From: Streptomyces sp. C10-9-1 | GTDB taxonomy: Bacteria > Actinomycetota > Actinomycetes > Streptomycetales > Streptomycetaceae | NCBI RefSeq assembly: GCF_024497955.1 | Contig: NZ_JANHKP010000008.1 | Coordinates: 62,001 to 126,000, forward strand | Direction of reading: 5' to 3' | Length of the DNA: 64,000 nucleotides | In this document: piece after piece, positions 1 through 17,366 of the stretch | Layout: each line of letters opens with the position of its first letter | How positions within the stretch are numbered: the first letter of the stretch is position 1 | The notes under the pieces: model-generated | What the model was told of the DNA's origin: nothing | The model's database searches: none | The model's input: only the letters and a program-made list of their open reading frames with translations | Program-made: the position numbers and the translations under genes

Positions 1-1622
1 GGTCCGCCGAGACGCTGGGCTGCTTCCAGATCGAGTCGCCGGGCCAGCGGGACCTGGTGGGGCGGCTCCAGCCGGAGGACTTCCACGACCTGGTCGTGGA
101 CATCTCGCTGTTCCGGCCCGGTCCGGTCGCCGCCGACATGGTGCGCCCGTTCATCGAGGCGCGGCACGGCCGGGCGCCCGCCCGCTACCCCCATCCCGAC
201 CTGGAGGACGCGCTGCGGGAGACCCATGGCGTGGTCGTCTTCCACGAGCAGGTCATCGAGATCGTGCACACCATGACCGGCTGCGGCCGGGACGAGGCCG
301 ACCGGGTGCGCCGGGGGCTGTCCGACCCCGGCTCGCAAGACCGGATCCGGGTCTGGTTCGCCGAGCGGGCCGCGGCGCGCGGCTACGGCCCGGAGACGGT
401 CGCCCGCACCTGGGAGATCGTCGCGGCCTTCGGCTCCTACGGCTTCTGCAAGGCCCATGCGGTCGCCTTCGCCGTTCCCACCTACCAGTCCGCCTGGCTC
501 AAGGCCCACCACCCGGCCGCCTTCTACGCGGGGCTGCTCACCCACGACCCGGGCATGTACCCCAAGCGGCTGCTGCTCGCCGACGCACGGCGGCGGGGGG
601 TGCCCGTGCTCCCGCTGGACGTCAACCGGTCGGCGGCCGCCCATCGAATCGAACTGGTGTCTGATGGTGAGGGGGGAGAGGCGGAAGGCCCGGGCCGCTG
701 GGGGCTGCGGCTGGCCCTGGCGGACGTCCACGGCATCACGGAGGCCGAGGCGGCGCGCATCGAGGCGGGCCGCCCGTACGCCTCGCTGCTCGACTTCTGG
801 CAGCGGGCCCGCCCCGCCCGCCCGGTCGCCGAACGGCTCGCCCAGGTCGGCGCGCTCGACGCCTTCGGTGCCAACCGCCGGGACCTGCTGCTCCACCTCG
901 CCGAACTCCACCGCGGCCGCCGCGGCCCCGCCGCCCACGACGGGCAGCTCCCCCTCGCCCAGGGGCGCGCCACCGCGCCCGTGGGCCTGCCGGACCTGGG
1001 GGACGCCGAACGCCTCAGCGCCGAACTCGGCGTGCTCGGCATGGACGCCTCCCGCCATCTGATGACCGACCACCAGGACTTCCTCGCCGAGCTGGGCGTC
1101 CTCTCGGCACGGCGGCTGCGCGGCGCCCGGCACGGGCAGAGCGTGCTGGTCGCCGGCGCCAAGGCGGCCACCCAGACACCGCCGATCCGGTCCGGCAGAA
1201 GGGTGGTGTTCACCACCCTCGACGACGGCACCGGCCTGGTCGACCTGGCCTTCTTCGACGACAGCCACGAGGCATGCGCCCACACCGTCTTCCACTCCTG
1301 GCTGCTGCTGGTGCGCGGGGTGGTGCAGCGGCGCGGGCCGCGCAGCCTCAGCGTGGTCGGGGCCGCCGCCTGGAACCTGGCCGAACTGGTGGAGCTGCGC
1401 CGTACCGGCGGGCTCGACGCGGTCGCGGCGCGCCTCGCCGCCCCGGGTCCGGACGAGGCCGCCGGGGAGGCCGGGGGCGGTGGGGAGGAGGCCGGCGCCG
1501 GGCGGCGGATCGAGCTGCCGACCGGCTACCGGATGAACCCCTGGGCGGACCTCCGCCCGGCCGGGTCGCCCGCCGCCACCGGACGGAAGCTGTGGCACCA
1601 GAGCCCCGGGAGCGCCGGATGA
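1..1622 (+). CDS. dnaE2: Error-prone DNA polymerase III alpha subunit DnaE2, C-terminal part
   Basis: The reading frame is already open at base 3 and ends in a TGA at 1620-1622, so only the last ~540 residues of a C-family replicative polymerase are present. The visible part holds the end of the polymerase palm and fingers (motifs such as LGCFQIES and GSYGFCKAHAVAFA), a helix-hairpin-helix-like region, and a C-terminal OB fold around VVFTTLDDGTGLVDL. DnaE2 carries out damage-tolerant mutagenic DNA synthesis. It is assigned as DnaE2 rather than DnaE1 because it is directly coupled by an ATGA overlap to an ImuB-like Y-family gene, the usual mutasome arrangement. The N-terminal PHP domain lies outside the window. 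Any upstream LexA site would also be outside. Confidence 0.93.
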   Translation, partial: SAETLGCFQIESPGQRDLVGRLQPEDFHDLVVDISLFRPGPVAADMVRPFIEARHGRAPARYPHPDLEDALRETHGVVVFHEQVIEIVHTMTGCGRDEADRVRRGLSDPGSQDRIRVWFAERAAARGYGPETVARTWEIVAAFGSYGFCKAHAVAFAVPTYQSAWLKAHHPAAFYAGLLTHDPGMYPKRLLLADARRRGVPVLPLDVNRSAAAHRIELVSDGEGGEAEGPGRWGLRLALADVHGITEAEAARIEAGRPYASLLDFWQRARPARPVAERLAQVGALDAFGANRRDLLLHLAELHRGRRGPAAHDGQLPLAQGRATAPVGLPDLGDAERLSAELGVLGMDASRHLMTDHQDFLAELGVLSARRLRGARHGQSVLVAGAKAATQTPPIRSGRRVVFTTLDDGTGLVDLAFFDDSHEACAHTVFHSWLLLVRGVVQRRGPRSLSVVGAAAWNLAELVELRRTGGLDAVAARLAAPGPDEAAGEAGGGGEEAGAGRRIELPTGYRMNPWADLRPAGSPAATGRKLWHQSPGSAG

Positions 1623-2581
1623 TCCTGTACGCACGCTTCCTGCCGCCGGTGCGCGAGGCGGCGCTGCCCGCACTGCTCGCCGTCGCCGAGGACATCAGCC
1701 CCGTCGTCCAGGCGCTTCCGCCCGACGCGGTCCTGGTCGACGCCGCGGGCGCGGAGCGGTACTTCGGCCGCGGCCCCGCCGGTCTGGCGGCCCTGCTGCG
1801 GGTCCGCCTGCTCGCCCACTGCGGCGTCGACTGCGTGATCGGGGCCGGCCCCGGCCCGATGCTCGCCAGGATGGCCGCCCGCGAGGCGGCTCCCGGCGCG
1901 GTGCGGGTGGTCGCCGAGGAGGAGGCGGCCGCCTTCCTGGCGGACAAGCCGGTCGCGGCCCTCCCCGGGGTGGGGGCGGCGACCGCCCGCACCCTGTGCG
2001 GCTACGGCCTGGACACCGCGGGCAAGGTCGCCGCCGCGCCGCTCGGCGTGGTCCAGCGCCTGCTGGGCGGCCGGGCGGGCCGCGAGGTGTGGGAGCGGGC
2101 GCGCGGTGCCGACCGGAGCAGGGTCGTCCCCGGCGCCCTCGCCCGGTCGATGACCGGCGAGCGGCACTTCCCCCGCGACGAACTGGACCGGGCGGAGCAG
2201 CGCCGGGCGCTGCTCTCCCTGGCGGAGGAACTGGGGGCCCGGATGCGGGGCGAACGGCAGGTGTGCCGCTCGCTGACCCTCTCCGTGCGCTGTGCCGACC
2301 GGTCGGTGACCACCCGCAGCCGCACGCTGCGGGAGCCGACCGCGTACTCCGGGGCGCTCACCGCCACCGCGTACGCGCTGCACGGGGCGCTCGGGCTGCA
2401 GCGGGCGAGGGTGCGCGGGCTGGCGCTGCGGGCCGAGGGCCTGGTGGCCGCGGAACGGGCCTCGCGCCAGCTGACCTTCGACCCGGCCGACGAGCGGGCG
2501 CGCCTCCTGGAGGCGGCGGCCGACCGGGTCCGGGCGCGGTTCGGTCCGGGCGCGGTGGTCCGGGGCGCGACGGCCGCCTGA
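1619..2581 (+). CDS. Y-family (DinB/ImuB-like) polymerase protein lacking catalytic acids
   Basis: This is a 320-residue protein whose ATG overlaps the dnaE2 stop (ATGA), so the two are translationally coupled. The middle shows the Y-family palm and helix-hairpin-helix (VAALPGVGAATARTLCGYG) and a little-finger-like C-terminus. It starts at MILYARF, and the usual N-terminal metal-binding DxD segment is missing. The SIDE motif region reads PPDAVLVD, keeping one Asp but with Ala in place of the catalytic Glu. This fits a structural ImuB-like partner of DnaE2 better than an active Pol IV. A longer frame reaches back to 1274 inside dnaE2, but there it shows only shadow composition. Function as a mutasome adaptor is inferred from family and context. 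Confidence 0.85.
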   Translation: MILYARFLPPVREAALPALLAVAEDISPVVQALPPDAVLVDAAGAERYFGRGPAGLAALLRVRLLAHCGVDCVIGAGPGPMLARMAAREAAPGAVRVVAEEEAAAFLADKPVAALPGVGAATARTLCGYGLDTAGKVAAAPLGVVQRLLGGRAGREVWERARGADRSRVVPGALARSMTGERHFPRDELDRAEQRRALLSLAEELGARMRGERQVCRSLTLSVRCADRSVTTRSRTLREPTAYSGALTATAYALHGALGLQRARVRGLALRAEGLVAAERASRQLTFDPADERARLLEAAADRVRARFGPGAVVRGATAA

Positions 2582-5772: not shown

Positions 5773-6174
5773 ATGGCCGGCGAGATCACCTTCTTCGAGC
5801 TCGGGGTGGGCGACCCGGACCGGGCCCGCGCCTTCTACGGGGGCCTGTTCGGATGGCTCTTCGAGGACGGCGCGGCCCGCGAGGGGGACGCGGACCCGGG
5901 GAGCGGCTACGCGATCCGCACCGACGGAGCTCCCGGTGGAGTGCACGGAGGCGATCCCGGCGCCCGGCCGTACGTCTTCTTCCGGGTGGACGCCATGGAC
6001 GCCGCCCTCGACCGGGTCCGCGAACTCGGCGGCCGGGTGGACGAGACCGAGCTCGGCGGTGACGAGGCGTCGGTGGCCCGGTTCGGGCGCTTCCGGATCT
6101 GCGAGGACGACCAGGGCTCCCCCTTCGGCCTCCACGAGCCCCCGCAGGCACGCGAGGCCCCGCCCGCGGCCTGA
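5773..6174 (+). CDS. VOC (glyoxalase/bleomycin resistance) superfamily protein
   Basis: A 133-residue single-domain protein with the vicinal-oxygen-chelate pattern: ITFFELGVGDPDRARAFYGGLFGW at the start, and a C-terminal half ending in DDQGSPFGLHEP. Such proteins bind a metal through residues on paired beta-alpha-beta-beta-beta modules. Substrates range from glyoxal adducts to antibiotics, and nothing here fixes one. An AGGAG ribosome site precedes the ATG. It is convergent with the DUF402 gene. Confidence 0.85.
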   Translation: MAGEITFFELGVGDPDRARAFYGGLFGWLFEDGAAREGDADPGSGYAIRTDGAPGGVHGGDPGARPYVFFRVDAMDAALDRVRELGGRVDETELGGDEASVARFGRFRICEDDQGSPFGLHEPPQAREAPPAA

Positions 6175-6246
6175 GGGCCGCGCGGGCGGTCGCGGCCGTC
6201 CTGCGGGGGAGGGGCCGCACTCCTCCGCCCCGGCCCGGACACCTCG

Positions 6247-6753
6247 TCAGACCGGCCCCCGCAACATGTGCGCCAGGGCTGCCGGCCCGCCTTCGCGCAC
6301 GAGGTGTTCGAGTGCGTCGAGCGCGCGCTCCGCCTCCCGCGCGGCTCCGGGGTCCCGCTCGCGCAGTCCGCTCGCGGCGAACTCGTCCTCGTCGAGGCGG
6401 AGCACCGTCCGCCCGTCCGCCGACACCCACAGGTCGAGGTCCAGGTCCTCCACGACCACGTCGGCACCCTCCCGCACCGCGGGCCGCGCGATGTCGCAGT
6501 ACCAGCCCTTGAGCTCTCCCGTGCCCGCGCGCACCTCCTTCACGGCGTACCAGCGGTCGCGCCGGTAGTGCTCGGTGAACACGTCGCCCGGCTCGAAGCG
6601 CACGAAGCCGAAGTCCCGTACGCCCGGGGCCGCCCAGGCGGCGCGCACCGCCAGGTGCGTCCCGTCGTCGAACAGCTCGGCGGCCGGGTAGCGGATCTTG
6701 GTCCTGCCCCTCTTGACGAGACGGACGTGCAGTGCGGTGAAGCCGTCGGGCAC
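6247..6753 (-). CDS. DUF402 domain protein (FomD-like phosphohydrolase family)
   Basis: A 168-residue protein from the chosen GTG at 6753, which has a GGGAGAGG ribosome site six bases upstream. A frame extends back to 6936 but would overlap the divergent GntR start and adds only low-complexity residues. The body shows the DUF402 core with a Trp/Tyr-rich region (YRRDRWYAVKEV, ELKGWYCDIARP) and the acidic metal-site segment VVVEDLDLDLWV, with DEDEF after it. Related proteins hydrolyse nucleotide or phosphonate pyrophosphate linkages, but the substrate here is unknown. It is transcribed divergently from the GntR gene. Confidence 0.8.
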   Translation of the reverse strand: MPDGFTALHVRLVKRGRTKIRYPAAELFDDGTHLAVRAAWAAPGVRDFGFVRFEPGDVFTEHYRRDRWYAVKEVRAGTGELKGWYCDIARPAVREGADVVVEDLDLDLWVSADGRTVLRLDEDEFAASGLRERDPGAAREAERALDALEHLVREGGPAALAHMLRGPV

Positions 6754-6916
6754 GGTGTACCTCTCCCGGGTGGTGGCGGGGTCCAAGCCGGCCGGCGGCG
6801 GGGCTCCGGCCCCGGAGCGAGCGGGCGTCAACCGCCGCGGCCCGCGCGACGACCATAGGGGCGAACCTGCGGGCCGCGCCTCCCGATATGCCGGGCGGTG
6901 GGGAAGAATCCGCCCC

Positions 6917-7306
6917 GTGACCTTCACCATCGCCATCGACCCGCACAGCGCCGACGCGCCCTACGAACAGGTCCGCGCGCAGATCTCCGAGCAGGCGCGC
7001 TCCGGGGAGCTGCCCGTGGGCTACCGCCTTCCGACGGTCCGGGCCCTCGCCGGGGAACTGGGCCTCGCCGCCAACACGGTCGCCAAGGCCTACCGTGCGC
7101 TGGAGGGTGACGGAGTGGTGGAGACCCGGGGCCGCCACGGCACGGTCGTGGCGGCCGCGGGTGATGCGGCGGCGCGTCAGGCGGCGTCCGCCGCAGCGGA
7201 TTTCGCCACCCGGGCGCACCGGCTGGGGCTCACGCGCGAGGAGGCCGGAGCGGCCGCCGCCGAGGCGCTGCGCACGGTCTACGAGGGGGGCGGCGCGGCC
7301 GGCTGA
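6917..7306 (+). CDS. GntR-family regulator, YtrA subfamily
   Basis: A 129-residue protein beginning at GTG 6917 (VTFTIAIDPHS), right after CCGCCCC. The longer frame from 6698 is antisense to DUF402 and is not used. The winged helix-turn-helix covers about residues 10-78 (LPTVRALAGELGLAANTVAKAYRALEGDGVVETRG). It is followed by a short helical tail, the signature of YtrA-type GntR repressors, which lack a large ligand domain. These usually control a linked ABC transporter, but none is adjacent here. It may instead autoregulate or control the divergent DUF402 gene. Confidence 0.88.
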   Translation: MTFTIAIDPHSADAPYEQVRAQISEQARSGELPVGYRLPTVRALAGELGLAANTVAKAYRALEGDGVVETRGRHGTVVAAAGDAAARQAASAAADFATRAHRLGLTREEAGAAAAEALRTVYEGGGAAG

Positions 7307-7467
7307 GAGCCGCGCAGGGGGGAGGGGCGCGTCCGGACGGCGCACCCCGGACGGGAAGTGACTTGGCGGAAACCCGTCAGTAACACATTTGGCATGGACA
7401 CTTCCAGTCAACCAAGCCCGCTGCTACGACAGTTGCAGCAGAGATCCTGCTGTGACTGGGAGGTTCC

Positions 7468-8274
7468 ATGAAGCTGTCCCGCATTGCCGCATTCTCGTCC
7501 TCGCTCGTGCTCGGCGCCGTCCTCGCTCTCACCGGAGCCGGTACCGCGCAGGCCGACTCCGCCCAGGCCGTCGACTACGTCGCCCTGGGCGACTCCTACT
7601 CCTCCGGGCTGGGAGCCGGCAGCTACGAGAGCTCCAGCGGGAGCTGCAAGCGCAGCACCCGCGCCTACCCCCGGCTGTGGGCCAACGCCAACGCACCCTC
7701 CTCCTTCGCGTTCACCGCCTGCTCCGGGGCGCGGACGAACGATGTGACCGCCGGTCAGCTCGGGCCGCTCAACTCGGGCACCGACCTGGTCTCCCTCACC
7801 ATCGGCGGCAACGACGCGGGCTTCGCGGACGTCATGACCACCTGCGTCCTGCAGTCCGAGTCCACCTGCCTCAGCCGGATCGCCCAGGCGAAGTCCTATG
7901 TCGACACCACCCTGCCCGGACGCCTGGACTCCGTGTACGACGCCATCAGCGGCAAGGCCCCCGCCGCCCGCGTGGTGGTCCTGGGGTACCCCCGCTTCTA
8001 CAAGCTGAACGGCAGCTGCATCGCAGGGCTCAGCGAGACCGAGAGATCCGCCATCAACGGTGCGGCCGACCATCTCAACGCGGCGATCGCCAAGCGGGCG
8101 GCCGACCACGGCTTCACCTTCGCCGACGTGGTCGGCACCTTCACCGGCCACGAGATCTGCTCCGGCAGCTCCTGGCTGCACAGCCTCAACTGGTTCAACA
8201 TCGGAGAGTCCTACCACCCGACGGCCGCCGGGCAGTCCGGGGGCTACCTGCCGGCGCTCAACGCCAACGACTGA
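7468..8274 (+). CDS. Secreted SGNH/GDSL lipase (phospholipase A1-like)
   Basis: A 268-residue protein with a Sec signal peptide (cleavage near AQA at about 29). The SGNH blocks are GDS with Ser43 (YVALGDSYSSGLGAG), a Gly in block II, GGND (SLTIGGNDAGF) and His250 in ESYHPTAAG. Six or more Cys residues suggest disulfides, as in the characterised Streptomyces secreted lipases. Together with the lipase at 2787 this gives two secreted esterases in 6 kb. The leader carries an inverted repeat CAGCAG-N5-CTGCTG just before the GGGAGG ribosome site. Confidence 0.93.
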   Translation: MKLSRIAAFSSSLVLGAVLALTGAGTAQADSAQAVDYVALGDSYSSGLGAGSYESSSGSCKRSTRAYPRLWANANAPSSFAFTACSGARTNDVTAGQLGPLNSGTDLVSLTIGGNDAGFADVMTTCVLQSESTCLSRIAQAKSYVDTTLPGRLDSVYDAISGKAPAARVVVLGYPRFYKLNGSCIAGLSETERSAINGAADHLNAAIAKRAADHGFTFADVVGTFTGHEICSGSSWLHSLNWFNIGESYHPTAAGQSGGYLPALNAND

Positions 8275-8376
8275 CGGCCCCCGGGCCCGCGCGGCCGGTC
8301 CCGGCGTCTCCTGCGCCGCTCCCGGGGCCGGTCGCGCACGCGTCCGCCGCCGCTCGGCCGCCGGGTCCGGTCCCGG

Positions 8377-9368
8377 TCAGCGGGACAGTGCCACCGCCCA
8401 CACCAGCACGGCCAGGACGAGCAGCACCACGGCCCCGGCCGCCAGCGCCGTGGCCCGGCCGTGCGCCCCGGCCCCGCCGGAGTCCGCCCGCCCCCCGGGG
8501 GTGCCGTCTCCGGCGGGCCCGCGGAGCCCGCCGCCGGCCCGCTGCCCCGGCCGGCGGCCGCCCCGCTCCCGGCGCGGGCGCCCGCGGCCCCCGCGGGGGG
8601 CGGACCGTGCGCCCCCGCGGCCGGTGCGGGCGGCACCGCACCGCCCGCACCCGCAAGGCGCAGCCGGTGCTCGGCCTCCGCGGCCGACATCGCCCCCGCG
8701 GCGTCCCGCCGCAGCAGCCCCTCGACCACCTCGGCCAGGGCGGCGCCCGCCCGCCCGGCGCGGGGTGCGTCCCCGCGCGGACCCCGGCCCTCCACCGCGG
8801 TGAACAGCACCGCCCCCAGCGCCCGCAGGTCGGCCGCCGCCCCCTGCGTCACCGGCGGCACGCCCGCGGCGCCCGAGCCCGTGCCGAAGCCCGTCACCAG
8901 CACCCGGCCGTCGTTCACGAGCAGCACCTTCGACGGCGTCACGTTCCCGTGCGGGACCCCCGCCGCATGGGCCGCCCGCAGTCCGGCCAGCGCCTCGGCC
9001 CCGATGCGCGCCACCTGCCGCGCAGGCAGCGGACCGTCGGCCTCCAGCAGCTCCGACAGCGCCAGTCCGCGGGCGGGCTCCATCACGATCCACGGCCGCC
9101 CGCCGTGGGCGACGACCTCGTGCACCGCGACCACGTTGCGGTGGGAGATCCGCCCCGCGGACCGCGCGCCGTCCTCCAGGCGCCTGAAGAGCAGGCGGGC
9201 GGCCGTCGGGTCCAGGTCCGGCGGCACCCGGATCTCCTTGACCGCCACCTCGCGCCGGAGCAGCTCGTCGCGGGCCAGCCACGCCACGCCCGTCCCGCCC
9301 TCGCCGAGGGGCCCGATCAGGCGGTAGCGCTCCGCAATCACGCGCCCTGTGACGGGCGTCTCGTCCAT
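8377..9368 (-). CDS. Ser/Thr pseudokinase with C-terminal membrane anchor, apparent frameshift in the linker
   Basis: The N-terminal ~265 residues have the Hanks-kinase fold: glycine loop GEGGTG (22-27) and the ATP Lys in VAVKEI (K44). The HRD catalytic Asp is Asn (H140-G141-N142) and DFG is GFG (160-162), so it should not phosphorylate. Read straight through, the frame runs to 8244 with an implausible Arg-rich tail and overlaps the convergent lipase. In the -1/+2 frame the same DNA encodes a textbook transmembrane helix (AVVLLVLAVLVWAVALS) and stops at 8377. A one-base slip in the Ala/Pro-rich linker, for example at C6G5 8491-8501, is the simplest explanation. The start ATG at 9368 follows AGGGGGA. 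Confidence 0.75.
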
Positions 9369-9651
9369 GCCGTCCCCCTGACCGCAACTCACGTCGAAAT
9401 GTGGTGCATACCCCTTCGGCGGCGATCAACTCACCCGGTGAGAGCCTGTGATGACGCTGCGTCAAATGATGCCCCCGGGGCAGGCGGACCGTTTCGGCGG
9501 TCAACTCGCCCTGAGTCCAGTCGTATTCGGAGAGTGACGGAGCAGGGGTGTGCGGGTGCGTCGGAGCGGGGAGGCGGGATACACGGGTGCCCCCCGGGAG
9601 CGATAGGGTTAATCTGCCCGGGCCGGGTGCATCGTACGGGTGGGGAGAGAC

Positions 9652-9915
9652 ATGGATCAGATAACAGTTCGCAGCAGGCCGCGCGTGCCTGCCATCACCT
9701 GCGGGAGCGGCGCCGCCAGTACGCGCCTCGACCGCCATCTCGCGGTCCTCGGCGGTCCCGCCGTACCGCAGCGGGAGGCCGCCGAGGCGACCCTGCTGAT
9801 GCGGGAGCTGACCTCGCGCGACGCGTCCCACGCGCGCCCGAACGGCACCGCCCGCGTCTCGCTCTTCGCCCCGCTGCGGCGGCTGCGCCGCTCGCTCTTC
9901 GGCAGCCGCGGCTGA
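9652..9915 (+). CDS. Small conserved hypothetical protein
   Basis: An 87-residue basic protein (MDQITVRSRPRVPAITCGSG...). ATG 9652 lies two bases after the GGGAGAG at 9643-9649, and an alternative GTG at 9640 would add four residues. The tail is Arg-rich (LRRLRRSLFGSRG). It is divergent from the pseudokinase. I do not recognise a domain; the segment RLDRHLAVLGG looks helical. A strong hairpin lies 60 bases downstream. Function unknown. Confidence 0.6.
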   Translation: MDQITVRSRPRVPAITCGSGAASTRLDRHLAVLGGPAVPQREAAEATLLMRELTSRDASHARPNGTARVSLFAPLRRLRRSLFGSRG

Positions 9916-10306
9916 CCGACCCGCCACCGGCGCTCCTCCCCGGCACCGGACCACGCACGGAAGACCGGCACCGCGCCAGGATCCTCTCCCCGGGATCCTG
10001 GCGGCCCACCGCCACCCGCACTCCGTTCGACTCGGCACCCGCTCGCCCCGTCGGCGCCCCCGTGGAACGGGCATCACCCCGCACGGCCGCGGGCATCCAC
10101 CGCGACCGACCGGCACCAGGGGACGGCCCACGGCAGCTCCGGAACGACCCCTGAGGACACTGCCCCGTGCGGGCCCACCACCCCTTTCCGCAGCCCCGCG
10201 CCCACCCCGATTCCTCCCGGGAGCGGGCTCCCCGCGCCGGCCCCGTCCCGGAGGGCCCGGAGCACCGGGAGCCGGGGCCCGGCACGGGCCGGACCCCGGC
10301 GGGCCG
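9916..10306. other. Intergenic region after the small protein gene
   Basis: No gene is supported here. Apart from the hairpin at 9975-10004, the 391 bases look like G+C-rich spacer between a plus-strand gene and the 3' end of the minus-strand TPR gene. Confidence 0.6.
9975..10004 (+). terminator. Perfect 11-bp hairpin, likely transcription end
   Basis: CGCCAGGATCC (9975-9985) pairs perfectly with GGATCCTGGCG (9994-10004) around an 8-base loop. It lies about 60 bases past the small gene's stop and has no T-run, as is common for Streptomyces terminators. Confidence 0.6.
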
Positions 10307-13300
10307 TCAGGAGCCCTCCCGGTTCAGGAAGTCCTGGCGGAGCGCCCCGAGGATCCGGGCCGCCTCCTCCAGTCCGGCGTGGCGGCACCGGCGTGCCGCC
10401 TCCGTCAGCCGCGTGACGGCCTGCGCGTATCTGCCCAGGCCGTTCCCCTCGATCAGGGCCGCGATCCGGACCGCCTCCGCGCGCGGCTCCTCGCCGTTCT
10501 CCCCGCCCCCTTCGTGGGCGGCGACGGACGCCTCGGCCTCGGCCAGGGCCTCCGCGAAGCGCTCGCACTCGGCGAGAACCCGGGCCCTGCGGTAGTGGAC
10601 CATGCCCGCGACGTACCAGGGCGCGAAGTCCTCCGCGCCCTCGGGCACCGCCTTGCGGACCTCGTCCGCCCGCGCCAGGTGCCCCAGTGCCGCGTCCAGC
10701 CCCCCGGGCCCGCGCCCCGCCATGACGAGCCGGGCGAACTCCCCCATCATGGCGGTGACGGCCGCCGGGTTCGGCGCCTGCGCATGTGCGTCCACGGCGC
10801 GCTCGTACGCGGCCTCGGCCGCCTCCCACCGCTCGGCCTCGGCCAGCGCGGTGGCCGCGTCCGCCGCCACCATGGTGAGGATCGGCCCGTCCTCCTCCCA
10901 GCCCGCGACGACGTCGGCCAGCAGCAGGAACTCCTCCGCGGCGGCCAGGTGCTCGCCCAGCTCCCGCAGCCCCCGCGCCAGCGTCAGCCGGGCCTGTGCG
11001 AGCATCCGCTCGTCGAGGACGCCGTCCGCCCCGCCGGCGAGCACGGACTCCAGGACGGCGACGGCGTCCGCCAGCTGCCCGTCCCGCGCCAGGACGTCGG
11101 CGAGCTGAAGCCGGAGGTCGGCGGCCTCGGCGAGTGCCCCGTCCCGGTCGAACCGCGCCGCCGCCTCCGAGAGGTGGCGCACGGCGCCGGCAGCGTCGCC
11201 GAGGTGCGTGGCCGCATGGCCCAGCAGCGCGTACGCCGGTGCGAGCGGGAACTCCGTGTCGTCGTACCGGACCGCGTCGCCGATCGCCCGGTGCAGCAGC
11301 TCGGACGCCTCGCCCGGTTCGCTCCGGGCCAGCAGCGCCTGGGCGAGCAGCACCCGCGGACGCGAACCGCGCCAGGGCCGCGCGGAGGACTCCACGTCCG
11401 CCAGCGCCGCCCGCAGCTCCGCCTCCGCCTCCGCCGCGTCACCCCGCCGAAAGGCCAGGTCGGCCGCGAACTGGCGTGCATTGGCCACCTGGTGCGGGAC
11501 CGCCAGGCCCTCCGCCTCGGAGCGCAGGGCACCCACGCACTCCTCGAACCGCTCCATGGCGGCGGCCTGGGCATCCTCCGGGGCCGCGGTCACCTCCTGG
11601 TAGGCGGCGAAGGCCCGGGAGAAGAGCACCGTGAGGTACTCCAGGACGCGCTCCTGCCCCGGTCCGCCCGCAGTGCCGTCCGCGCCCGCCGACGAACCCC
11701 CGGTGAGCGGTTCCCGCTCCTTCAGGAGCTCGGCCTCGTGCAGCACCTCGTCCAGGGCCGCGCGGAAGGCGCCGGGGCCGTCCGGCCCGGCGCCTTCGGC
11801 GGACCCGCCCGCCTCCTCGTCCTCGTCCGGAACGGACTCCCAGGCGAGGGCCCGGGCACGCGCGGAGAGCATGCGCCAGGGCGCACCCGCCCGGCCGAAC
11901 AGCTCGGCGGCCTGCCTCAGTTCGGAGACGGAACGCCCCCCGCGGTCCTCCCGCGACAGCACCAGCGCCCGGTGCTCGGCGAGTTCCGCGGACAGCAGCT
12001 CCCCGGGACCGAGGCCCTCGCCCGGGTGCTCCCCGGCCGCCAGCCGGTCCTCCACACGGGTCCACAGCCGCGCCGCGCCCGGATGCCCCGTCGCCCCCAG
12101 GCGCCGGGCCTCACGCACCAGCCCGGCGAAGTCCTCGGGGACCTCCGGCACCGCGGCGCCCGCCATGGCCGCCGGGCCCGACTCCGGCGCCGCGGAGCCG
12201 ACCACCGGGCTCCGCAGCCCCAGCGGAAGGGGCTCCTCGCGCAGCGGGAGCTGCGCCAGCCGGGCGCGCCGCCGGTCGCCGACCGCCGTGGTCCCGTTGC
12301 GCCCGTCGAAGGCGGCGGCCAGGTGCTCCGCCTCGCCCCGGACGTGGGCGAGGAGCTCGCCCGCCGTCCAGTTCCGTCCGGGCGGGCCCGCGACCGCCGC
12401 CGCGCCGTGGCCGTCTGCGACGATGCGGGCCAGCAGGACCTCCACGCCGGTGAGGAAGCCCAGCAGCGACAGCGGGGCGCCCGTGGCCCCGAACAGCGGG
12501 CGGTTCTCCGCGAGGATCTCCAGCCCCCGGCCCTCGTTGCGCGACAGCGCGCAGAACTCCAGATGCAGGCCGACCTCGTCCAGCATACCCGTGTTGCCGC
12601 GGACCCGGCGGTAACCGGTCAGGTGGTGGGAGCGTGCCTCGTCCGCGCGCCCCGTGCGCAGCAGCGGGAGCAGCGCCCGCGCCTGGCTCATCTGCGGTTC
12701 CTCGGTGCACGCCTGCGCACCCTCGAGGACCGGCCGCCAGGAGTCGAGCGCCCCGGCGTCGTCGCCCGCCGACACCCGGTGCCACGCCAGGTACCGGGTC
12801 TCGCACGCCTCGCAGTCGCTCAGCTCGCTGCGCGGGCGGGTGGCCCAGAGGTCGAAGGCGTCGTCGGCCCCGGTGCCCGTGTGGGCCGCGAGGTGGTAGC
12901 GCATCGCGGCCACCGGCTGCACCTCGTGCCCGGCGGCCTCGTAGAAGCCGCCCATCCGGTCGATCCAGCCCTGGACGGTGGCCAGCGGCACGTCGGGCAC
13001 CTGGAGCAGCGAGGTGGTCACCCACTTGAAGCGCCAGAAGACCTGGTGGGCCTCCCACTGGCTGAACGCCTCGGGCGAGTCCTCCCACAGCTTCAGCAGG
13101 CGGGCGAAGACCACCGGCGACTTGCGGTGCTCGCCGGTGAACTCGTACGCCGCCATCAGCTCCAGCAGGGCGGTGACGAGGACGTCCGGCTCCTCGAAGG
13201 GCTCGGCGGCCTCGGCCAGCTCCTCGGCGGTGATGGTCCGCTGGAGCCCGTGGGGGCGCTCGTTGTTCTCGCGCAGCGCCTCGACCACGGCCTCGGGTGT

Positions 13301-13309
13301 GTCCAGCAT
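10307..13309 (-). CDS. Large tetratricopeptide-repeat protein, HSP90 partner candidate
   Basis: A 1000-residue all-helical, Ala/Glu/Leu-rich soluble protein with no signal peptide or membrane segment. TPR-like helix pairs recur through the second half, for example around ALRELGEHLAAAEEFLLLADVV and AERWEAAEAAYERAVDA. Two Cys in SDCEACETRY near residue 185 are notable. The ATG (13309) follows the HSP90 stop TAG (13312-13310) with no intervening base, so translation of the two is almost certainly coupled. Eukaryotic TPR proteins are HSP90 co-chaperones, and an analogous partnership is inferred here from coupling alone. No enzymatic domain is visible. Confidence 0.85.
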   Translation of the reverse strand: MLDTPEAVVEALRENNERPHGLQRTITAEELAEAAEPFEEPDVLVTALLELMAAYEFTGEHRKSPVVFARLLKLWEDSPEAFSQWEAHQVFWRFKWVTTSLLQVPDVPLATVQGWIDRMGGFYEAAGHEVQPVAAMRYHLAAHTGTGADDAFDLWATRPRSELSDCEACETRYLAWHRVSAGDDAGALDSWRPVLEGAQACTEEPQMSQARALLPLLRTGRADEARSHHLTGYRRVRGNTGMLDEVGLHLEFCALSRNEGRGLEILAENRPLFGATGAPLSLLGFLTGVEVLLARIVADGHGAAAVAGPPGRNWTAGELLAHVRGEAEHLAAAFDGRNGTTAVGDRRRARLAQLPLREEPLPLGLRSPVVGSAAPESGPAAMAGAAVPEVPEDFAGLVREARRLGATGHPGAARLWTRVEDRLAAGEHPGEGLGPGELLSAELAEHRALVLSREDRGGRSVSELRQAAELFGRAGAPWRMLSARARALAWESVPDEDEEAGGSAEGAGPDGPGAFRAALDEVLHEAELLKEREPLTGGSSAGADGTAGGPGQERVLEYLTVLFSRAFAAYQEVTAAPEDAQAAAMERFEECVGALRSEAEGLAVPHQVANARQFAADLAFRRGDAAEAEAELRAALADVESSARPWRGSRPRVLLAQALLARSEPGEASELLHRAIGDAVRYDDTEFPLAPAYALLGHAATHLGDAAGAVRHLSEAAARFDRDGALAEAADLRLQLADVLARDGQLADAVAVLESVLAGGADGVLDERMLAQARLTLARGLRELGEHLAAAEEFLLLADVVAGWEEDGPILTMVAADAATALAEAERWEAAEAAYERAVDAHAQAPNPAAVTAMMGEFARLVMAGRGPGGLDAALGHLARADEVRKAVPEGAEDFAPWYVAGMVHYRRARVLAECERFAEALAEAEASVAAHEGGGENGEEPRAEAVRIAALIEGNGLGRYAQAVTRLTEAARRCRHAGLEEAARILGALRQDFLNREGS

Positions 13310-15172
13310 CTACAGTTCCTTCCGGGGCTCGGAGCCGGGTGCCGCCGTGCCGGTGTGGTGCATGGCGTGGGTGAGCAGGCCGATGAAGGCCCGGTTGAGC
13401 AGGGCGCTCTCGCCCGCCCGCAGCGGGCGTCGGCTGAGCAGCAGGGCCTGGCCGTACAGGGCCTCGGCGGTGGTGACGGCCAGCCCGCGCTCGGCGACCG
13501 TGAGCGCCTGGCGGACCAGCGGGTTGAGGTGGTTCAGGACGAGCTGCGCGCGGGGGGTGTCGTGGCGCAGCGAGCCCAGGATGTCGGCCCACAGGCCGTC
13601 GCTCTCCGCGGCCAGGCCGGACCGGGTGCGCTCGTGCCGCGCCTCCCGGTTGTCCAGGAGCAGCGCCGGGGCGGTGACCGGCTGGAAGTCGCGCAGGACG
13701 ACGTCGCAGTCGTGGACCCCGATCGTCTCGCGCGCCACGGCGAGGAAGGCGGCCGCCCGCAGCTCCGCCGCCGGGTCCACGGCGTCGAGATGGGCCGTGA
13801 CCGTGGCCGGGTCGAGGTCGGCGACCGCCGTCCCGGGACGCAGTTCGGGCAGCCGGTGCACCAGGTCGCGGTCGTAGGTGTAGCCGCCGTTGACGACCCC
13901 CAGCCCGGCCGCCGCGGCGATGGGCGCCACCTGGCGGAACTCCTCGACGCTCCGGGTGACCAGCAGCGTCGGGTGCGTGCGCGCGAACTCCTCCAGGGTG
14001 ACGTTGCCGTCGCTGGTCTCGAACGGCAGCCAGGGCAGCACGATCCGCAGCAGCTCGTCGTCGTAGCGGGCGAGGGCCTTGACCGCGAGGTGGTGCGTGT
14101 CGATGAAGCGGTGCAGCAGGGACGGGTCGCTGGCGGCCAGCCCGGTGAGCCAGTCGCGGATCCGCTCGCCCAGCGCGTCCCGCACCGCCGAGAGCGTCCC
14201 GTCCTCGTACAGCGCCTCCCGGGAGGCGGTCGGGCGCAGACTGGTGGTGTCGACCACGCAGCGCACGAAGAACGCCCACTCGGGGAGCAGTTCCGGCGCC
14301 CGGTCGGTCAGGAGCATGCCCTTGAGGTGCACCCGGTGGCCCGCGCGCTGGGCGGGGCTGACGGCCGTGGGCAGCACATAGGCGACGCCGCGCAGCCCGG
14401 CGGCCGGCAGATCGAGCTCGATGGTGTCCAGCGGGGTGAAGTCGAACAACTCCCTGCAGTGGGCGGTGAGCGCCTCGCGGCGGGCGAGCGGCGAGCGGTG
14501 GGCCCGCTCCCACGGGGGCGTCTCGTTGACGCGGTGGGTCCCGCCGTCCGGCGTGACGACGGTGACCTCGTGCCGCAGCAGTCCGCCGTAGTGCCGGGCC
14601 AGGGCGAGGACCTGCTCCGGGCTCGTCCAGTCCGCGTTGTCGGCGCGCGGTGTGAGCCGCACCGTGGTACCCGGTTCGGGCACGGCCGACGCGGGCAGGG
14701 TCCGGATCGTGTAGGCGCCGTCCGAGCGGCCCCGCCACTCCACGGCGGGCGCGGCCGGGTCCGCCGCCGACCTGCTGAGTACCGTGATCTCGTCCGCCAC
14801 CACGAAGCAGGCGAGCAGCCCGATGCCGAACTGGCCGATGAACTCGCCGCGGGCCTCGTCGAGCCCGGCGCCGTCCAGCCCGCCGCCGGCCGTCCGCTTG
14901 GAGCTCCGGCCGATGGTGGCCAGGAACCGGTGGACGTCGGCCTCCGTCAGGCCGACACCCGTGTCCGTGACGGTGAGCGTCCCGCCCGTGCGCACGGTGA
15001 TGCGGCCGGACGCGCCGGGGTCCGCGGCCTGACGTGCCGTGATGGCGTCCACGGCGTTCTGGAGCAGCTCGCGCAGGTAGACGCGGGGGCTGGAGTACAG
15101 GTGGTGGGAGAGCAGGTCGACCAGACCGCGCAGGTCGACCTGGAAGGTGTGGGACGTCTCGGAAGGGTGCAC
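13310..15172 (-). CDS. Divergent HSP90-family (HtpG-like) GHKL ATPase
   Basis: A 620-residue protein with all three ATP-site motifs of HSP90 in divergent form: YLRELLQNAVDA (Glu35, Asn39, Asp42), DTGVGLT (70-76) and the lid GQFGIGLLACF (113-123). In canonical HtpG the corresponding motifs are ELISNASDA and GQFGVGFYSAF. A middle domain (DTIELDLP, RVHLKGMLL) and a dimerisation region follow, so it is full length. It is an ATP-dependent chaperone. The clear divergence and fusion to a TPR partner in one operon suggest a specialised client rather than the housekeeping role. ATG 15172 is used. Confidence 0.9.
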   Translation of the reverse strand: MHPSETSHTFQVDLRGLVDLLSHHLYSSPRVYLRELLQNAVDAITARQAADPGASGRITVRTGGTLTVTDTGVGLTEADVHRFLATIGRSSKRTAGGGLDGAGLDEARGEFIGQFGIGLLACFVVADEITVLSRSAADPAAPAVEWRGRSDGAYTIRTLPASAVPEPGTTVRLTPRADNADWTSPEQVLALARHYGGLLRHEVTVVTPDGGTHRVNETPPWERAHRSPLARREALTAHCRELFDFTPLDTIELDLPAAGLRGVAYVLPTAVSPAQRAGHRVHLKGMLLTDRAPELLPEWAFFVRCVVDTTSLRPTASREALYEDGTLSAVRDALGERIRDWLTGLAASDPSLLHRFIDTHHLAVKALARYDDELLRIVLPWLPFETSDGNVTLEEFARTHPTLLVTRSVEEFRQVAPIAAAAGLGVVNGGYTYDRDLVHRLPELRPGTAVADLDPATVTAHLDAVDPAAELRAAAFLAVARETIGVHDCDVVLRDFQPVTAPALLLDNREARHERTRSGLAAESDGLWADILGSLRHDTPRAQLVLNHLNPLVRQALTVAERGLAVTTAEALYGQALLLSRRPLRAGESALLNRAFIGLLTHAMHHTGTAAPGSEPRKEL

Positions 15173-15356
15173 GGGCGAAGCCTTCGGTGGGCGCCCGCAC
15201 CGTGTCGGCGCGGGCGGGTTGCGGACGGATGTGCTCTGGACGCGCGGGGGCGGCGCCCCACCGGGCGCCGCGGCCGCCGGTGGGGGCGGCGGGCCGTCCC
15301 GGGACGCGGGCGGCGCCGGTGCGGCGGGCCGGGCGGCGGAGGCGGCGGTGCCGGGC

Positions 15357-16331
15357 TCAGCGTCCGGCCGAGAGCCGGTGCTTGCGGTAGGCCGCCACCG
15401 GGTGGCCGCCCAGGTAGTCCCACGGGGACTCGCTCACACGGCCTTCCGTGGCGCGGAAGCACTCCCGTGCGGAGGAGCGGTCGCCGGCCAGCGAGAAGGC
15501 CATGGCGAAGGCGTTGAGGGCGGCCACCCAGGAGCCCTCGCGGACGAAGTCCGGGTGCAGGACGGAGTGGTCGGCGGCCTCCCGCAGCGACTCCGTCACC
15601 CGGGGCAGGCGCATGTAGGCGGCGTCCTCGCCGTCGCCGAGGGCGAGCCAGTGCTCGATGTGGGCGGTCGCGACCAGGCCGCCCAGCAGGGTTCCGGGGG
15701 GAGCCTCCAGGGCGGCCTGCCGCGCGAAGGAGTGCATCTCCTCGTGCGAGCCGCCCCACTTGTCGCAGACCTGCTGCAACTGCTGGTGGTGCGCGCCCGG
15801 ATGGTGGGGGTCGCGCCGGACCGTCGCCTCGAACCGCCGACGGGCGACCGCCTGGCCGACCTGGAGACCGCGGCCGGTGACCTGGAGGCCGTACCAGGGC
15901 GAGGTCCACCCGGGCTCCCGCTCGGCCACCTCGTACAGCCACGTCTCGGCCGTGCGCAGCCGCGAGTGGAAGGTCTCGAACTGCTCCCGCGAGACGTGCC
16001 GGGCCAGGGCGGCCGTCCGGGCCTCCCAGCCCCACGAGATGTGCCGTATGGCCGCCACCAGGCGCGGCAGCGGCGCCTCGGGATCCGCTTCGAGTACGGG
16101 GGCGATCCACCGCTCGACGCCGGGGGTGTCGGCGACCGCCCACAGCAGCTCGACCCGGTTCCCGCTCTCGGGGCACGCCTCCAGGACCTCGCGCACGGTG
16201 CTCCAGTCCGCCGCGGCGGCCGCCTTCCGTACGCGGGGCACGGCCGGGTCCCCGGAGTCCTTCTGTAGCCGCGCGACGGGCCGCACCGCCCATCTCCCCA
16301 GCGTGAGCCCCCGATCACGGAGCAACGCCAT
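15357..16331 (-). CDS. Uncharacterised helical protein upstream of HSP90
   Basis: A 324-residue protein from ATG 16331 (MALLRDRGLTLGRW), preceded by GGGGTGGGG. A frame continues to 16607 but only through spacer. It is rich in Trp and His (HHPGAHHQQLQQVCDKWGGSHEEMHSF) with repeated helix pairs resembling Sel1/TPR-type folds. It may belong to the DUF4034-like group of actinobacterial proteins, but I am not certain. It is on the same strand as HSP90 and TPR, 184 bases upstream of HSP90, so it may be the first gene of a three-gene unit. Confidence 0.75.
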   Translation of the reverse strand: MALLRDRGLTLGRWAVRPVARLQKDSGDPAVPRVRKAAAAADWSTVREVLEACPESGNRVELLWAVADTPGVERWIAPVLEADPEAPLPRLVAAIRHISWGWEARTAALARHVSREQFETFHSRLRTAETWLYEVAEREPGWTSPWYGLQVTGRGLQVGQAVARRRFEATVRRDPHHPGAHHQQLQQVCDKWGGSHEEMHSFARQAALEAPPGTLLGGLVATAHIEHWLALGDGEDAAYMRLPRVTESLREAADHSVLHPDFVREGSWVAALNAFAMAFSLAGDRSSARECFRATEGRVSESPWDYLGGHPVAAYRKHRLSAGR

Positions 16332-17366
16332 GTCCCCACCCCTTGTGTGCCTGCCCTGACGGGGGCTGATGATCACCCCCTGGTGGAGGTAGTGCCTATC
16401 ACGAGTGACCGACACTCGCACAACCGTTTCAGTCGGCTGCGGGGTTGCGGGCCCGGCGCCCGTCCGGCCGGACCGGTTCCGCACGGGCGCCTGCCCGGCG
16501 TTCCCGTGCGTCCCCGGTGAGGCGGCCACGGTCAAGCGCGTCGGCGGCGCGGTACGGGGGGCGGCGGCCTTCGCCGCCGCCGGGGAGGTGCCGGCTGCGG
16601 TCCGCAACCCCCCTGTGGCGTCCGGCCGGTCGGCCGGCCCCGGCCCCGGCTCTCCGCCCGCACGGGTGCCGAAGGCCCCGGGCGGGACGTGGTGCGGGAC
16701 GGGCGTGGCGCGTGTGCCGTGTCAGGGCGGGATCCCGGGAGGCGGGAGCGCCTGCGCGCGCACGGCGGGGCCGGTTGCGGCCTTACCGCGGCCTTCTTCT
16801 TGGCAGGAGCGTCTGCGCCCGCACGGCCGGGCTCCCGCCGACGCGCACGGTCTGCCGCCCGGCCGTCGGGAACACGTCCGGCACCCGGTCGTGGGGACCC
16901 GTGCGCGCTTCCGGCGGCCGGACCGGGGAGGCCGGCACGACAAGGACGGCGGACACGGCCGGGAGCGGTACCAGCGCCTTCGCCGCCGCCCTCCTCGGTG
17001 GTGCCCCGCCCCGCGGACCGGGACGGCGGCGAGGCTCCCGCGGAGCCGGGTCCCGCCCGGACACGGCAGGCTCGCCGCCGGCCCGGACCGGCGGCCGCTC
17101 CAACCCGCCCTGCACGAGCCCCGGCTGATGCAGCGCCCTGTGCCGAGCGCCCTCCCGCAGGCCACGCTCCCGCCCGCCGCCCTTCGACGGGTACTGCCGC
17201 CTCCCGCCCGGCGGCGAGGCCGTCGCCCCGCCCCTGCCGCTCTGCGGGCGGGACGGGGCCGAGGACCCGCCGAACGGCGCCGGTTCGAGCCCGACGGCGT
17301 CACGGCTGGGGCCGACCGGCCGGGCCCCCGAGCGGGTCTCCGCGCGCCGCCGGCCCCGGCGCTACG
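16332..17366. other. Gene-poor 1 kb region
   Basis: No convincing coding sequence. All long frames here are Pro/Arg/Gly-rich with no recognisable domain. A minus-strand stretch near 16790-17000 has a hydrophobic run (LVPLPAVSAVLVVPA) and could be a decayed secreted protein, but it lacks a start with a ribosome site. It separates the HSP90 cluster from the epoxide hydrolase. Confidence 0.5.

Follow-up and report, generated by a model that had tools for sequence, protein, structure and literature searches.

A conserved operon pairing an NF010683-class Hsp90 with a TPR-solenoid protein: a candidate dedicated chaperone pair in Streptomyces

Among described chaperones, the closest to the system considered here are eukaryotic Hsp90 with its tetratricopeptide repeat (TPR) cochaperones (Hop/Sti1, FKBP51/52, PP5 and SGT1), the HtpG proteins, including E. 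coli HtpG and mitochondrial TRAP1, and the bacterial HSP90 family NF010683 (= PRK14083), which is annotated alone. Two HtpG-type genes, encoding proteins of 638 and 615 amino acids (aa), have been reported in S. coelicolor (PMC1525184), and our guess is that the shorter protein belongs to the NF010683 class. Here we describe an NF010683-class HSP90 gene and the TPR gene directly downstream of it in Streptomyces sp. C10-9-1, within a stretch of 64,000 nucleotides (nt) analyzed as a whole and hereafter called the window (contig NZ_JANHKP010000008.1, positions 62,001 to 126,000). The original prediction for this DNA had proposed that the two genes encode a dedicated chaperone pair. The conserved genetic unit on which that proposal depends was found, whereas the molecular parallel with eukaryotes, an altered catalysis and an anti-phage role were not supported.

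Linkage and coupling of the HSP90 and TPR genes

The HSP90 gene occupies positions 13310..15172 on the minus strand and encodes a 620-aa protein from a GTG start codon. The protein scored 826.6 bits over residues 5-608 against the NCBIfam model NF010683 ("HSP90 family protein"), well above the cut-off of 455, but only 177.3 bits against the HtpG model NF003555, below the cut-off of 371. By these profile scores it is a member of the known family NF010683, distinct from HtpG.

To follow the pair in other genomes, we surveyed 100 relatives and the host and counted, from two tables, every place with an NF010683-type HSP90 gene that was not cut by a contig end. The TPR gene lay immediately downstream on the same strand in all 67 such places, whereas none of the HtpG copies in the same genomes (about 30% identical) had an adjoining TPR gene, and in the relatives surveyed no NF010683-type HSP90 gene was seen without a TPR neighbor. 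The pair was present in 37 of 60 genomes of the same genus and in each of 14 genomes taken from a related family in the order, and many relatives carried an NF010683-type HSP90 and HtpG together. Because the arrangement recurs in every testable relative, it is not a product of chance. Fifteen relatives had two copies of the HSP90 gene, each with its cognate TPR gene, which indicates that the two genes were duplicated or transferred together; in places, copies lie on chromosome arms and plasmids. With the Firmicutes cases described below, the genome-neighborhood survey that the original prediction had called for found linkage conserved in two phyla.

A homologous TPR gene was also present in 121 of the 122 loci that we fetched, including one (L096) in which it was missed in one scan merely through the choice of start codon. 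The exception, L122/L152 from another family of the class, has in its place an unrelated-looking 297-aa protein with Pfam TPR matches, whose gene overlaps the HSP90 stop codon by ATGA.

In the window, the HSP90 stop codon (TAG, 13312-13310) directly abuts the TPR ATG, with 0 nt between them, exactly as the original prediction had it. Stop-to-start distances across the loci ran from -7 to +26 nt and were mostly between -4 and +3, a range that leaves out L105, where a value of -811 is an artefact of start choice. The Shine-Dalgarno sequence of the TPR gene, AAGGAA (13316..13321, minus strand), falls within the part of the HSP90 gene that encodes R-K-E close to the C terminus, and a strong Shine-Dalgarno sequence for the TPR gene was found inside the HSP90 gene at 80 of 92 loci, compared with 49 of 1900 background windows. 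The abutting stop and start codons imply translational coupling; the fixed stoichiometry that had been read from them was an overstatement. No single-frame HSP90-TPR fusion was found among the fetched loci.

The original prediction had also called the ATP motifs of the HSP90 divergent, but as a sign of altered catalysis this was not supported. The GHKL/Hsp90 ATPase features (ELxxN, DxGxG, GQFGIG and the middle-domain Arg, in SRE) are all intact, and the motif differences from HtpG are confined to noncatalytic positions. All 122 family members, and likewise all 27 HSP90s that are distant or served as outgroups, have E35, N39, D70, G72, G74 and the middle-domain R318. Since these catalytic residues never vary among the relatives, the HSP90 is not degenerate, and from its sequence an active ATPase is expected. 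Solved structures related to it include TRAP1, HtpG and Hsp90 (E values down to 2e-33), and no second HSP90 was found in the host assembly. We also considered whether the geldanamycin-insensitive HtpG of S. hygroscopicus (E88G/N92L) belongs to the NF010683 class, but this assignment was unsupported, the family having mostly D and F at those positions.

The TPR partner and its distribution

The TPR partner (10307..13309, minus strand) is a 1000-aa protein with an ATG start codon. Pfam gave only subthreshold TPR matches to it (TPR_12). An AlphaFold2 model made with 41 homologues was a confident all-helical solenoid (predicted local distance difference test score [pLDDT], 88.7) whose two parts, spanning residues 1-352 and residues 394-999, are joined by a disordered linker. 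Foldseek searches with the model returned TPR superhelices (OGT, LGN, the SKI complex and Ctr9) and singled out no cochaperone. By this model, the partner is a tandem helix-turn-helix TPR solenoid.

The N-terminal domain (residues 1-352; 12254..13309, minus strand) is the most conserved segment and contains a CxxC...C stretch running from C166 to C201 (12707..12814, minus strand) that is conserved in Actinobacteria and Firmicutes. C166, C169 and C201 were invariant in the 41 homologues. Listeria, Paenibacillus, Actinomyces and most outliers have them too, all three being retained in 10 of these 11 rows. This conservation pattern is compatible with a possible metal or redox site. In Actinomyces oris (L144, 4367-10916), the same TPR N-domain protein (1011 aa) occurs with no HSP90; its gene lies downstream of one for a YbjN-domain protein and of a weak YbjN match.

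Distant cases were drawn from a plasmid collection that also holds misfiled chromosomes and large replicons. In Listeria monocytogenes, an NF010683 HSP90 (799 bits) is followed by two proteins of ~320 aa and lies beside fri, consistent with the reported adjacency of fri and lmo0942 (PMC3534079). We infer that the genes are lmo0942-lmo0941-lmo0940, the numbers of the two partners following from gene order; no function for them was found in the literature. The pair in Paenibacillus cellulosilyticus has a 353-aa partner whose gene overlaps the end of the HSP90 gene. The Firmicutes partners aligned along their whole length with the Streptomyces partner up to residue 345 (hhalign probability, 99.8%; E value, 8e-30; residues 10-344). 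Because the alignment covers this portion, we regard the N-terminal domain as the core that has been conserved and the other 650 residues as an actinobacterial extension.

A gene for a TPR-like protein of ~770 aa begins 1-36 nt after an HSP90-like gene in Xanthomonas, P. aeruginosa, Salmonella and E. coli. In E. coli, each of the two genes was present in 248 of 5,426 genomes and was always chromosomal, the copy examined lying between fdhD and frvR. The Xanthomonas HSP90-like protein scored 277 bits on NF010683, under the cut-off, and homology of the ~770-aa partners to the Streptomyces partner was not significant (hhalign probability, 9%). On sequence comparison, then, the proteobacterial pairs may represent an independent HSP90-TPR pairing. 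By eye, a CxxCxxCE motif in the proteobacterial partners (E. coli SE15, L164, 10001-14144; L150, L148 and L146) resembles the actinobacterial CxxCE, although the profile comparison is not significant. Another distant locus, on a Pseudanabaena plasmid (L145), carries an HSP90-like gene (5932-8565) whose product weakly matches TIR/CAP12 at its C terminus (E value, 0.001). A TPR gene (9371-10795) lies downstream as the second gene after it, and the island also holds a TIR protein and vWA, AAA and DEAD/DEAH genes. The HSP90-like protein is possibly an Hsp90-TIR conflict protein.

The original prediction had likened the pair to eukaryotic cochaperone biology, but at the molecular level this parallel did not hold. 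No MEEVD-like C terminus was found in the HSP90s, whose tails vary in length and in one clade stop right after the C-terminal domain. The tail motif RK(E/D) (RKEL, RKDI or RKDS) was rejected as an MEEVD analogue, as its codons hold AAGGA, the Shine-Dalgarno sequence of the TPR gene. On the partner side, the 41 sequences contained neither a conserved K/R-xxx-N pair nor a full five-residue carboxylate clamp. In the absence of both MEEVD and the clamp, binding, if any, must therefore occur by another route.

The upstream gene and the surroundings of the pair

The third helical protein that had been predicted upstream on the same strand was confirmed. It is a TPR-like protein of 324 aa with an ATG start codon (15357..16331, minus strand) that was modeled as a helical TPR-like solenoid (pLDDT, 91.6) and is the third member of the cassette in Streptomycetaceae clades. 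In clade A (51 loci) and clade B (29 loci), conservation on the coding strand was limited to this upstream gene and the HSP90 and TPR genes, the neighborhoods otherwise differing; the upstream gene is missing from a third clade. Candidate further neighbors came to nothing, the antisense matches being shadow open reading frames (ORFs). Upstream of the three genes lies a promoter-like box, TGTCGGTCACTCGTGATA (16397..16414, minus strand), with related boxes before the same gene in relatives; no second copy occurs in the genome at 0-1 mismatch. The promoter-like region is recognizably conserved in many relatives. The clade without the upstream gene (L030 and L111-L115) has a conserved GCGGTC...GACCGC inverted repeat in its HSP90 leader, a possible hairpin in the 5' untranslated region.

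A 1712-aa ORF (10379-15517, plus strand) runs antisense across the TPR and HSP90 genes. We take it to be a typical high-GC shadow, since both the homology and the conserved junction belong to the frames on the minus strand. A Ser/Thr protein kinase-like ORF (8244-9392), likewise on the minus strand, lies a short way downstream of the TPR gene; its match covers only the N-terminal half or so of the kinase domain. Elsewhere in the window, positions 57-2581 (plus strand) hold the 3' part of a DnaE-type polymerase gene and, after it, the gene of a Y-family (ImuB-like) polymerase; together the two resemble a translesion mutasome pair.

Function of the pair and comparison with known systems

The reading that we favor, and consider reasonably probable, is that the locus encodes a dedicated bacterial Hsp90 module in which the TPR partner docks in a non-EEVD manner and takes part in client handling. 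An ATPase-competent NF010683-class Hsp90 would be cotranslated with its large TPR-solenoid partner. The N-terminal ~350-residue domain, with its CxxC...C segment, would be the ancestral, required piece of the partner and would bind Hsp90 directly through the Hsp90 body, not through a C-terminal EEVD tail. In the actinobacterial version, the C-terminal 600-residue solenoid would capture a limited range of clients to be fed into the Hsp90 cycle, the upstream TPR-like protein might act as an accessory adaptor that helps client capture, and the partner cysteines may also play a role. Some observations count against such a module: the TPR domain is also found without HSP90, as in A. oris and as additional copies in a different family within the order, and no client is linked in the neighborhood of the cassette. 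Moreover, the close agreement between the HSP90 and TPR distance matrices (r = 0.97) mostly reflects shared species history and common descent, and we gave it little weight.

The chief rival to a cochaperone is a client. Hsp90 would then be the private foldase or activator of a single large TPR sensor or scaffold that contains cysteines and that would afterwards act alone, with YbjN-type partners elsewhere. In favor of this reading, partner lengths span about 300 to 1000 aa, sequence change in the partner outpaces that in the HSP90 (mean identity, 58% versus 73%), and cotranslation would suit folding during synthesis. The TPR copies without HSP90 cut both ways, since they allow for a protein acting alone but also mean that the TPR protein can do without HSP90. 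No NF010683-type HSP90 was seen without a TPR neighbor, which is more in keeping with a cochaperone than with a client, and we regard the client explanation as unlikely.

We think it more improbable still that the HSP90 is a stress or housekeeping Hsp90 that has replaced HtpG, with the TPR gene retained by operon inertia. Although the lack of any other HSP90 in the host assembly would suit such a replacement, many relatives hold both proteins, and the linkage outlasts neighborhood changes and phylum-level distance. The stress function raised in the original prediction was checked solely through the heat-shock elements HAIR and CIRCE (HspR/HrcA regulon), both of which were absent from the window with up to 3 mismatches allowed; this too speaks against a stress Hsp90. 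An anti-phage function had likewise been suggested, and an anti-phage or other conflict system might be one in which the Hsp90-TPR pair would set an effector threshold in the spirit of the MoxR-vWA ternary systems. The patchy occurrence of the pair in the genus (37 of 60 relatives), the copies on chromosome arms and plasmids, and the Pseudanabaena HSP90 with its weak TIR match near TPR, vWA and AAA genes lend this idea some color. However, the cassette lacks an effector domain; PADLOC gave no system match for the TPR protein or the upstream protein and, for the HSP90, matched just the generic GHKL domain of TmtA/REase models; and no viral contig carried a confirmed relative. The neighbors in the window are metabolic genes, and chromosomal loci elsewhere lie beside fdhD/frv (E. 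coli) or next to fri (Listeria). We therefore do not favor an anti-phage function and hold it to be very improbable. A "phage" record, MT837560, was set aside as a viral copy, being an unverified fecal scaffold.

A broader proposal, which we offer tentatively and with more doubt than conviction, is that there are bacterial Hsp90-cochaperone systems in which the NF010683 class and, separately, the proteobacterial Hsp90-like proteins each have an operon-encoded, EEVD-independent TPR partner, possibly metal or redox gated through CxxC...C. Already, a near-obligate Hsp90-TPR operon in two phyla offers a concrete and tractable candidate for a bacterial Hsp90 cochaperone, with simple versions for study in Listeria (two small genes) and Paenibacillus (one). 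It also opens the question of whether TPR-Hsp90 pairing has arisen more than once, and without an EEVD tail. No published description of the NF010683 HSP90-TPR pairing was found in the open literature, subscription papers lying outside the search; as far as we found, the candidate pair is newly recognized, although the HSP90 class itself was already known.

Set against its own family, the window HSP90 is a full-length, high-scoring member, but the near-obligate TPR partner is absent from the curated descriptions of NF010683/PRK14083 that we found. With HtpG it shares the three-domain Hsp90 plan and the catalytic residues, differing in its score on NF003555 and in having a TPR neighbor, homologues of which did not accompany the HtpG copies examined. 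The Listeria genes have the HSP90 class and a homologous partner domain in common with Streptomyces, but there the partner takes the form of two short proteins instead of one of 1000 aa, and the upstream third gene is absent. The proteobacterial pairs likewise join an HSP90-like gene to an adjoining gene for a large TPR-like protein, although the HSP90 falls below the NF010683 cut-off and the partner is not demonstrably homologous. Like the eukaryotic Hsp90-cochaperone systems, the Streptomyces locus pairs an Hsp90 with a TPR protein; unlike them, it does so without MEEVD or clamp columns, the similarity stopping at the generic TPR fold, and with the partner encoded in the same operon as its Hsp90.

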